Source of the DNA: Blastococcus aggregatus
GTDB taxonomy: Bacteria > Actinomycetota > Actinomycetes > Mycobacteriales > Geodermatophilaceae
Reading direction: 5' to 3'
Length of the DNA: 64,000 nucleotides
Assembly (NCBI RefSeq): GCF_900221005.1
Contig: NZ_OBQI01000007.1
Coordinates: forward strand, 1-64,000
In this document: positions 46,592-47,829 of the stretch, piece by piece
Layout: each line of letters starts with the position of its first letter
Numbering within the stretch: position 1 is the stretch's first letter
Notes under the pieces: generated by a model
Seen by the model: the letters and a program-made list of their open reading frames with translations, nothing else
Told to the model about the DNA's origin: nothing
Database searches by the model: none
Program-made: the position numbers and the translations under genes

Positions 46592-47131
46592 TCAGGGCTT
46601 CGACGCCAGCCGCACGTCCTCGCGCAGGGCCGGGAGGTCGACGCCGCGATCGTGCAGCACCGTGCTCGCCAGCCCCTGGCCCTCCCGGATCAGCCCGAGC
46701 AGGACGTGCCCGTCGGTGATGCTCCGCGACTTGCCGGCGATGGCCTCGCGCAGGGAGAGCTCGAGCACCTTCTTGGCGCCCGGCGTGAACGGGATGTGGC
46801 CGGTCCGCGCCGAGCGCGCGCCCGGGCCGTCCAGCGCGCCGACCCCGAACGAGGCCTCGACCGAGCTGCGCACGGCGTCCAGGTCGATGCCGAGGGAGGT
46901 CAGCGCCGCGGCGTCGAGCTCCTCGCCTCCGGTCAGGCGGACGATGTCGGCCGCCACCGCCTCGCGGGTCAGGCCGTGCCGGCCGAGCGCCGTGGACGCG
47001 GTGGTCCCCTGCCGGGTCAGCAGGGCGAGCAGCAGGTGCTCGGTGCCGACCCGGTCGGAGCGCAGCTCGCGGGCCTGTTGCTGGGCGCCCTCGACCACCT
47101 GCCGGGCCTCGGGTGTGAAGCGCTCGAACAT
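46592..47131 (-). CDS. Stand-alone ClpC N-terminal-domain protein (ClpC-NTD decoy-like)
   Basis: 179 residues made only of the two Clp_N repeats: MFERFTPEAR...GTEHLLLALL (1-67) and GHIPFTPGAKKVLELSLREA...LLGLIREG (111-175), joined by an insert of about 35 residues. There is no ATPase domain. The sequence is closest to ClpC1, and Phe2 and Phe115 match ClpC1 Phe2 and Phe80, which contact cyclomarin. Mycobacterial ClpC2/ClpC3-type proteins of this kind bind such antibiotics and shield ClpC1. It is the second gene of an operon with an HTH protein (2-bp gap). An adaptor role is the alternative. Confidence 0.85.
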   Translation of the reverse strand: MFERFTPEARQVVEGAQQQARELRSDRVGTEHLLLALLTRQGTTASTALGRHGLTREAVAADIVRLTGGEELDAAALTSLGIDLDAVRSSVEASFGVGALDGPGARSARTGHIPFTPGAKKVLELSLREAIAGKSRSITDGHVLLGLIREGQGLASTVLHDRGVDLPALREDVRLASKP

Positions 47132-47133
47132 CG

Positions 47134-47367
47134 TCAGTCCTTCCGTCGGAGCGGCCCTCGGCCGCGTGCGTGCTTCTTGTGGACCGCCTGCCGGCTGACG
47201 CCGAGGCGCTCGGCGATCTGCTCCCACGTCCAGCCCTGCTCGCGCGCGTTGCCGACCTGGAGTTCCTCCAGGCGCTCGACGAGGACGCGCAGCGAGCGGA
47301 CGGCCGCCAGCCCCACGGTGGGGTCCTTGCTGCTGGCCGCCGAAGCGACCTGTGCCGTGTCCGCCAT
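47134..47367 (-). CDS. Small HTH protein, probable regulator of the ClpC-NTD operon
   Basis: 77 residues with a clear helix-turn-helix at 46-66 (GWTWEQIAERLGVSRQAVHKKH minus its last residues is the core), similar to sigma-70 region-4-like actinobacterial regulators. The ATG at 47367 is seven bases after a TAGGTT -10 that is itself 17 bp from a consensus TTGACA, so the transcript is leaderless. Two palindromic sites cover both promoter boxes, which suggests autorepression. It is followed after 2 bp by the ClpC-NTD gene. Confidence 0.82.
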   Translation of the reverse strand: MADTAQVASAASSKDPTVGLAAVRSLRVLVERLEELQVGNAREQGWTWEQIAERLGVSRQAVHKKHARGRGPLRRKD

Positions 47368-47371
47368 GCCT

Positions 47372-47414
47372 GTCAACCTAGGTTGCATCTCTTGGACTGT
47401 CAACCTTGGTTGAC
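47372..47414 (-). promoter_or_regulatory. HTH/ClpC-NTD operon promoter with two operators
   Basis: On the minus strand TTGACA (47403-47398), a 17-bp spacer and TAGGTT (47380-47375) make a near-consensus promoter. GTCAACCTTGGTTGAC (47399-47414) is a perfect palindrome covering most of the -35. GTCAACCTAGGTTGCA (47372-47387) is a near-copy covering the -10. The two sites start 27 bp apart, about 2.5 helical turns. The obvious candidate ligand is the adjacent HTH protein. Confidence 0.8.
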
Positions 47415-47447
47415 TCGACGTGCGTGAGAAGGTGGGGGAGAGCCGCA

Positions 47448-47505
47448 CCTCTGGCTCCCGGACGAGCGGTGCCGTACCCGGTGTGCGACAAGACGGCGCC
47501 AGAGG
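47448..47505 (+). promoter_or_regulatory. Guanidine-III riboswitch controlling the SMR exporter
   Basis: The core from CCGGACGAG (47458) through CCGTACCCGGT to GACAAGACGGCGC (ends 47499) matches the guanidine-III (ykkC-III) pseudoknot almost base for base, as I recall the crystallised actinobacterial example. Just outside, CCTCTGGC (47448-47455) is the exact complement of GCCAGAGG (47498-47505), which contains the Shine-Dalgarno bases. This suggests a translational switch in which flanking pairing hides the ribosome site and guanidine binding alters it. Confidence 0.85.
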
Positions 47506-47514
47506 AGTTCTCCC

Positions 47515-47829
47515 ATGGCCTGGCTCGTGCTCGTCGTGTCCGGGGTGTTCGAGGCGGTGTGGGCCACGGCCCTGGGCCGGTCGGCCGGGTTCACCCGGCT
47601 CGCCCCGTCGATCGTCTTCGCGGTCGCCCTCGTGCTGAGCATGGTCGGGCTCGCCTACGCGATGCGCGAGCTGCCGGTGGGCACGTCCTACGCGGTGTGG
47701 GTGGGCATCGGCGCGTCGCTCACCGTCGTCTACGCGATGGCCAGCGGCACCGAGCCGGTGTCAGCGGCGAAGGTGCTGCTGATCCTGGGGCTGATCGGCT
47801 GCGTCGTCGGCCTCAAGGTCGTGCACTGA
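47515..47829 (+). CDS. gdx: SMR-family guanidinium exporter (Gdx/SugE-like)
   Basis: 104 residues, four membrane helices. The conserved membrane glutamate is in SGVFEAVWATAL near residue 13, and GTSYAVWVGIGA is the Gdx-type signature rather than the EmrE type. It exchanges guanidinium for protons. GAGGAG precedes the ATG. The guanidine-III riboswitch immediately upstream supports the substrate call strongly. Confidence 0.92.
   Translation: MAWLVLVVSGVFEAVWATALGRSAGFTRLAPSIVFAVALVLSMVGLAYAMRELPVGTSYAVWVGIGASLTVVYAMASGTEPVSAAKVLLILGLIGCVVGLKVVH

Follow-up and report, generated by a model that had tools for sequence, protein, structure and literature searches.

A split form of the ClpC2 system in Blastococcus aggregatus: a small helix-turn-helix protein paired with a stand-alone ClpC-type N-domain as a probable autoregulated decoy

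We analysed a 64,000-nucleotide stretch of Blastococcus aggregatus DNA (assembly GCF_900221005.1, contig NZ_OBQI01000007.1, positions 1-64,000; hereafter the window) from a genome of 4.62 Mb, and examined in it a pair of adjacent minus-strand genes, one for a small helix-turn-helix (HTH) protein and one for a stand-alone ClpC-type N-domain, whose nearest named relatives are from Blastococcus. Both open reading frames (ORFs) are as an earlier note on this DNA had placed them, with a 77-residue HTH protein encoded from 47367 to 47134 and a 179-residue N-domain from 47131 to 46592, and the gap of only 2 nt between the HTH stop codon and the N-domain ATG suggests that they form an operon. The genes and their features are as follows, where split loci are those in which the two genes are separate.

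47134..47367, minus strand: putative HTH repressor gene, 77 residues, with predicted helices at residues 4-10, 16-43, 48-55 and 59-67
47167..47193, minus strand: codons of the predicted recognition helix, HTH residues 59-67 (RQAVHKKHA), from the fold model; residues 59, 61 and 64 covary with the operator
46592..47131, minus strand: stand-alone ClpC-type N-domain gene (double Clp_N, 179 residues), assigned from Pfam, ClpC1 N-terminal domain (NTD) chains, Foldseek and the fold model
47126..47128, minus strand: codon for N-domain Phe2 (Phe in 177/208 split loci, 19 gaps)
46787..46789, minus strand: codon for N-domain Phe115, equivalent to ClpC1 Phe80 (Phe in 165/208 split loci, 5 gaps)
46847..46912, minus strand: N-domain residues 74-95, a pair of helices that separates two complete four-helix repeats in the fold model
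47138..47144, minus strand: GGAAGGA, Shine-Dalgarno-like, 6 nt 5' of the N-domain ATG and within the end of the HTH gene

The N-domain contains three Pfam Clp_N stretches (E 1.4e-20) and scores 73.6 bits against PF02861, well above the curated cut-off of 20.7. It matches ClpC1 NTD chains by sequence, and its fold model (predicted local distance difference test, pLDDT, 92) matches the ClpC1 NTD in Foldseek (E 1.1e-11). Alignment to the ClpC1 of the same genome, with whose N-domain it shares 45% identity, confirmed the assertion in the earlier note that the two phenylalanines matching ClpC1 Phe2/Phe80 are kept: Phe2, Phe115 and Glu124 align with ClpC1 Phe2, Phe80 and Glu89, the three residues described as critical for cyclomarin in the ClpC2 paper (PMC10030653). 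The fold and the ligand residues are common to the split N-domain and that of ClpC1, from which the former differs by the lack of an ATPase and by ~30 extra residues. The HTH protein narrowly reached the Pfam cut-offs of four general HTH or sigma-region-4 families, and its model is a helix-turn-helix (mean pLDDT 89, falling under 50 at residues 73-77). Structure searches with this model returned generic HTH proteins only, none at E<=0.001, and the ClpC2 chain 8ADA was not among the matches listed. The B. aggregatus genome encodes four Clp_N proteins, none of them a fused ClpC2.

The region upstream of the HTH gene holds two palindromes and the elements of a putative promoter.

47399..47414, no strand assigned: putative operator 1, a perfect 16-bp palindrome GTCAACCTTGGTTGAC, overlapping the -35
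47372..47387, no strand assigned: putative operator 2, an imperfect palindrome GTCAACCTAGGTTGCA with two mismatches, overlapping the -10 and 27 bp from operator 1
47398..47403, minus strand: -35 element TTGACA, 6/6 matches, read from the sequence
47375..47380, minus strand: -10 element TAGGTT, 3/6 matches, after a 17-nt spacer; the HTH ATG starts 8 nt past its last base

The operators start 27 bp apart, so that one comes to lie over the -35 and the other over the -10, as had been noticed earlier. Across the whole genome, the pattern GTCAACCNNGGTTG is confined to these two sites (a reversed-pattern control gave 0 occurrences), and mismatch-free GTCAAC-n4-GTTGAC occurs once, at 47399-47414. Palindromes with one mismatch were found elsewhere in the genome as two single sites, C4:458369 and C4:920045, both beside ORFs that look unrelated, and there was no sign of a wider regulon in this genome; as a gauge of chance, patterns with up to two mismatches number 64 per strand vs 36 for the reversed control. 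The promoter had been called near-consensus, which holds for the perfect -35 and not for the -10, and a consensus (sigma-70) scanner reported no promoter at the locus. The ATG of the HTH gene lies where transcription should begin, so this gene is probably leaderless, with the transcription start expected on or next to the ATG; the N-domain gene has its own GGAAGGA. The leaderless two-gene operon of the earlier note thus stands as two adjacent genes, with a leaderless start that is predicted and an operon read from the 2-nt gap.

We next asked how widely the pair occurs. An HTH match at E<=0.001 was found in 77 of the 97 genomes searched (own included). Among 255 fetched HTH loci, 225 have a separate same-strand Clp_N within 400 nt after the HTH frame, the rest being 17 HTH-Clp_N fusions, 12 with neither arrangement and 1 at a contig edge. 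The non-redundant set of 248 loci (own included) comprises 218 split, 17 fused, 12 without Clp_N and 1 at a contig edge, and in 217 of the 218 split loci the Clp_N match starts at most 100 nt from the HTH stop. As 20 loci had been fetched on purpose as likely fusions (15 were fused, 5 had no Clp_N), the split share without them is 218/228, and all these counts describe our sample rather than frequencies in nature. A scan with the pattern of the HTH recognition helix alone gave at least 595 matches, at least 578 of them relatives; the best 80 named loci, which were kept, include 79 split pairs and one contig-edge case, and span Blastococcus, Modestobacter, Streptomyces, Kitasatospora, Actinomadura, Streptosporangium, Nocardia, Rhodococcus, Mycobacterium, Cellulosimicrobium and a Nitriliruptorales metagenome-assembled genome, among others. 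A palindrome with at most one mismatch is present in 194 of the 218 split loci. The survey of co-occurrence proposed in the earlier note therefore found the pairing of genes and palindrome conserved.

Within the genus, the HTH and N-domain genes are present or absent together. Among 22 other congener genomes, a close HTH (E below 1e-30) is present in 14, only a distant paralog in one and no HTH in seven; a stand-alone N-domain was found in all eight HTH-positive congeners tested (of the 14), and an intact one in none of the seven HTH-negative ones. One of the latter, G021, retains two short remnants of the N-domain gene (G021:C48:125043-125324).

Split and fused loci differ in operator spacing. 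The palindromes of the split loci (at most one mismatch) comprise 342 sites with spacer 4 and three with another spacer, vs 29 sites with spacer 5 and one with spacer 4 (L256) in the 16 of 17 fused loci that have such a palindrome. Ten genomes among the fetched loci hold both versions, and in these the fused copies all have spacer-5 sites and the split copy has a spacer-4 site (at most one mismatch) in 8/10, the exceptions being L233 in G483 and L237 in G389. The coexistence of spacer-4 split copies and spacer-5 fused copies in the same genomes suggests insulation between paralogs.

The fused form is ClpC2 (Rv2667 type), published in 2023 as an inducible, self-repressing cyclomarin "sponge" (PMC10030653). 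Its operator, CGTCAAC-n5-GTTGACG, is present twice over the -35/-10 of a leaderless promoter that is de-repressed by cyclomarin, and residues 4-72, solved by Taylor et al., form a dimeric four-helix bundle (PMC10030653). Our split-HTH profile matches the ClpC2 chain 8ADA (E 3.3e-4, model positions 20-57 on chain residues 35-72), and in this alignment the chain stops just short of the recognition helix, ClpC2 R57 corresponds to R42 here and ClpC2 D46 to E31. Changing ClpC2 R57 to Ala broke the dimers and raised expression 4.6-fold, and gel shifts supported the need for dimers (PMC10030653). The split pair resembles ClpC2 in that a ClpC-type N-domain with two Phe comes after an HTH region, and also in the GTCAAC half-site and in the two operators over the -35/-10 of a gene that is leaderless (here by prediction). 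It is unlike ClpC2 in being two ORFs with a stop between them instead of one chain, in its operator spacer of 4 rather than 5, and in its N-domain, which is ~30 residues longer than that of ClpC2 between the repeats. PDB entry 8b9o, considered as a possible ClpC3, was rejected, as it is ClpC2 of M. smegmatis.

To find which protein reads the operator we used 208 split loci with two usable palindromes, taken from the 248 non-redundant loci after leaving out 17 fused, 12 without Clp_N, 10 with weak palindromes and 1 at an edge. Their half-sites are GTCAA in 181, GTCAG in 11, AGCAA in 7, ATCAA in 7 and others in 2. In contrasts picked after the table was seen, operator bases vary with HTH residues 42, 59, 61 and 64: the 11 loci with inner base G all have S/T61 or lack K/Q at 64 (vs 7/197 others), the 15 loci with changed outer bases all lack R42 (vs 16/193), and the seven ATCAA loci, with AT at the outer two bases, all have A/P59 (vs 0/201). 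Of these, residues 59, 61 and 64 fall within helix 59-67, the predicted recognition helix. Because the loci share ancestry, mutual information computed directly from alignment columns and operator class ranked HTH and N-domain columns alike; it was replaced by counts of co-changes on trees. On a tree of the concatenated proteins (414 branches), R42 was best for base 1 (4/5 operator changes, p 2.9e-6; best N-domain column 5.2e-4) and base 2 (3/4 changes, p 9.6e-5; best N-domain column 1.4e-3), and for base 5 A61 (3/7, p 2.9e-5) and K64 (3/7, p 4.6e-4) were ahead of the best N-domain column (6.3e-3). On a tree of the N-domain only, R42 (4.1e-6) leads for base 1 and K64 (1.7e-4) for base 5. The number of changes in these tests is small, from 4 to 9 over bases 1, 2 and 5, and the p-values are uncorrected for ~230 variable columns (63 HTH, 169 N-domain). 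For base 6, HTH column 72 came first on both trees; it lies in the tail without predicted structure, and the signal is probably noise. As a check outside the fitted set, each of the 15 ClpC2-type fusions fetched on purpose combines GTCAAC half-sites with the equivalents of R42, K/R59, A61 and K64, as in the split HTH.

That the HTH protein controls its own operon, as the earlier note had proposed, is thus well supported by comparison, with palindromes kept in most split loci and their bases changing with HTH residues. Certain data nevertheless weigh against assigning DNA recognition to the HTH protein in so simple a manner. On the N-domain-only tree, base 2 is tracked best by an N-domain column (2.1e-3), and for base 5 one comes close (2.2e-4). 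R42 is also missing in 16 of the 193 loci whose outer bases are unchanged. Its counterpart in the alignment, ClpC2 R57, has been described as forming a salt bridge in the dimer, so that R42 may act via dimer geometry, and its covariation does not by itself imply that it touches a base. Moreover, Taylor et al. assigned ClpC2 DNA binding to R185/R189 in the C-terminal domain (PMC10030653); if that role holds, the N-domain may touch DNA too, and ClpC2 R185 corresponds to R128 here, with R in 159/208 split loci. Put together, the R185A/R189A change that weakens ClpC2 DNA binding (PMC10030653), the retention of R128 and the match of R42 to a dimer residue would fit a scheme in which, as suggested for ClpC2, the N-domain shares in reading the DNA or has the main part in it, and the HTH only dimerises. 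We consider this quite unlikely: HTH residues track bases 1 and 5 better than N-domain residues on both trees, R189 is not kept (Ala here; A in 75 and R in 69 of the 208 split loci), and 7 of the 12 loci without Clp_N (L083, L089, L093-L095, L253 and L263) have an HTH with E below 1e-19 and still have upstream palindromes of some type. The words HTH or helix-turn-helix are absent from the main text of the ClpC2 paper, which does not there describe the HTH as a DNA reader (PMC10030653).

Several variants of the HTH-operator arrangement were observed. Seven loci (L082, L086, L087, L088, L090, L091 and L096), six of them in genomes of the same family, carry a second, paralogous HTH + Clp_N pair with ATCAAC half-sites and recognition helices of the type GIS-A-QAAHK (TPQ in L096). 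In L083, the same HTH type and two palindromes are followed, 8 nt downstream, by an AAA+ (MoxR-like) ATPase-like frame and not by Clp_N, so that the HTH-operator module may serve other effectors. L225 (genome G096) has a related HTH fused to what reads as a PASTA-like stretch. L085 and L256 are two more HTH-Clp_N fusions, with spacer-4-type sites (for L085 with three mismatches allowed), possibly independent of ClpC2 or the product of a sequencing frameshift.

We then compared the pair with M. smegmatis ClpC3. As the 396 drawn genomes include none with a ClpC2 domain identical to that of M. smegmatis, synteny was compared via G822, a 7.1-Mb genome near that of M. smegmatis; over the ClpC2 C-terminal domain, G822 and the M. 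smegmatis chain share 94% identity. By Pfam, the pair in G822 is flanked on one side by a divergent MPG gene and on the other by ABC ATPase, ABC-2 permease and TetR genes, and this matches the published order mpg / MSMEG_3760 / 3761 / 3762 (ABC) / 3763 (ABC) / 3765 (TetR) (PMC5660060); MSMEG_3760-3761 is therefore very likely the M. smegmatis version of the split pair. Like the split pair, it has a stand-alone Clp_N gene, MSMEG_3761 or clpC3 (PMC10454040), after a small HTH gene, and two palindromes: a 16-bp motif stands at both -47 and -19 of MSMEG_3760, unbound by TetR (PMC5660060), and the operators of the B. aggregatus locus start at -47 and -20. The accessible text of that study leaves the palindromes unexplained and the HTH unnamed (PMC5660060), unlike our reading, in which MSMEG_3760 is the likely missing repressor of clpC3. 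ClpC3 is described as binding cyclomarin and ecumicin and as induced when ClpC1 is targeted (overviews PMC10864484 and PMC10746685; Hoi 2023, via PMC10864484). G822 and another genome, G554, encode four Clp_N proteins each: the split N-domain, a fused ClpC2 and two full-length Clp ATPases, in our reading ClpC1 and ClpB.

Among PDB entries, the one that the HTH profile matches best is the RelI antitoxin (9sdc, E 2.1e-7), which by profile belongs to the same small HTH family and through which the HTH region of ClpC2 has already been noted (PMC13284704). A toxin-antitoxin-like pair, as formed by RelI beside its toxin partner RelS (PMC13284704), is nonetheless highly improbable here, where the partner is a Clp_N protein that folds as the ClpC1 N-domain.

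The locus is very probably the ClpC2 system divided over two genes, an autoregulated decoy that imitates the face by which ClpC1 binds ligands. HTH dimers would bind the two 16-bp operators over the -35 and -10, a link drawn from the comparisons above, and would keep the pair silent, as ClpC2 does its own gene. The free N-domain would offer a ClpC1-like Phe-Phe-Glu pocket and, by its kinship to ClpC2 and ClpC3, compete for the ligands of ClpC1, candidates being cyclomarin-type peptides, ecumicin and possibly unfolded or arginine-phosphorylated proteins. Once such ligands appear, repression would be lifted and more decoy made. The shield that the earlier note had envisaged against ClpC1-targeting antibiotics draws its support from this kinship: the cyclomarin-contact residues are kept, and in M. 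smegmatis synteny points to clpC3, whose product is reported to bind cyclomarin and ecumicin. Two published results do not sit easily with this. By reverse transcription PCR, MSMEG_3760 and MSMEG_3761 were called monocistronic units in 2017 (PMC5660060), which argues against one shared transcript in that species; and ecumicin and ilamycin, although bound by M. tuberculosis ClpC2, neither induce it nor are countered by it, both effects having been obtained only with cyclomarin (PMC12913811), so that ClpC2 is not a general shield against ClpC1 drugs and the range of inducers may be narrow.

That ecumicin and ilamycin do not trigger ClpC2 (PMC12913811) would also fit a proteostasis load sensor and holdase, whose natural inducer is an unfolded or tagged Clp substrate and whose antibiotic binding is incidental. 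Heat induces ClpC2 about twofold, and a holdase role was proposed by the authors (PMC10030653); M. smegmatis clpC3 is listed as cold-induced, with 10.94 in the first value column (PMC10454040); and the pair is widespread in actinobacteria, of which presumably few have to meet cyclomarin. Yet cyclomarin raises ClpC2 mRNA 263-fold, far beyond heat (PMC10030653), and joint absence of the pair from 7 of 22 congeners fits accessory defence better than housekeeping. We regard a load sensor as possible, if somewhat doubtful.

The likeliest coupling of ligand binding to repression in two separate proteins, to which we give about an even chance, is ClpC2-like and non-covalent: the free N-domain would help the HTH protein to hold the operator, and the ligand-loaded N-domain would not. 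The main rival for this step is turnover, with the HTH protein as a ClpC1P substrate: ClpC1 over-activators would destroy the repressor so that the N-domain is made, which would then compete with ClpC1 for the HTH protein and the drug, making an HTH-N-domain complex unnecessary. Such a switch would account for the coupling of two separate proteins; cyclomarin activates ClpC1P (PMC10030653) and alone of three peptides induces ClpC2 (PMC12913811), and the HTH tail 73-77, with pLDDT under 50, is as a degron would need. Proteolysis is, however, unneeded in fused ClpC2, whose DNA binding cyclomarin lowers directly in vitro (PMC10030653). Turnover by ClpC1P is unlikely, and we favour the non-covalent coupling.

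More broadly, we find it reasonably probable that the split pair is a main form, across Actinomycetota, of a two-protein stress switch that monitors the ClpC1 ligand pocket, that fused ClpC2 uses the same HTH, so that its C-terminal DNA-binding model would need revision, and that the spacers of 4 and 5 prevent cross-regulation where a genome has both versions. The decoy or sponge idea itself is already published for ClpC2 and ClpC3, and the HTH in ClpC2 is already known (PMC13284704); the operator code and the split pair seem new. No description of the split pair was found in the literature searched; Hoi et al. 2023 (Cell) may say more on ClpC3. Apparently new are the HTH partner and its spread, the operator spacing of 4 (split) vs 5 (fused), the operator bases that vary with HTH residues 42, 59, 61 and 64, and the presence in ClpC2 of the same HTH, whose solved fragment ends before the recognition helix, in a challenge to the C-terminal DNA-binding model. 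Several antimycobacterial peptides target ClpC1, and cyclomarins at least are blunted by the ClpC2/ClpC3 sponges. From the split pair comes an indication of the protein that reads the operator, together with a residue-to-base code testable by gel shift; the pair also puts the C-terminal DNA-binding mechanism of ClpC2 to a direct test and offers a natural two-part drug sensor. The locus is real, conserved and functionally interpretable; what makes it valuable is the split architecture and how widely it has spread, along with the spacer rule and the residue-to-base code.

The split N-domain is longer than that of ClpC1 between the two conserved Phe. In the main operator class, the median length of the stretch H32-F115 is 86 residues (range 11-192, with some poor alignments); its equivalent has 48 residues in the own ClpC1 and 46-51 in the 9 of 17 fusions that allowed the measurement. 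In the fold model, the helix pair 74-95 looks like the addition, between two complete four-helix repeats; contrary to this, the sequence alignment to ClpC1 places the gap at residues 41-69 and makes 74-95 ClpC1-like. The motif ALxxIGIDL in the 74-95 region occurs in 132/181 main-class loci and in 0/17 fusions. N-domains of split loci also have an arginine-rich linker between the repeats (RRRR or more in several) that is absent in the own ClpC1.

Divergent from the pair, on the plus strand, lie a guanidine-III riboswitch (47437-47502; 62.3 bits vs a cut-off of 36) and, after it, a small multidrug resistance (SMR) gene (47515-47829). These constitute an ordinary guanidine export locus, and an SMR gene is found near the split pair in 14 of the 29 relatives tested (loci of ~3.2 kb).
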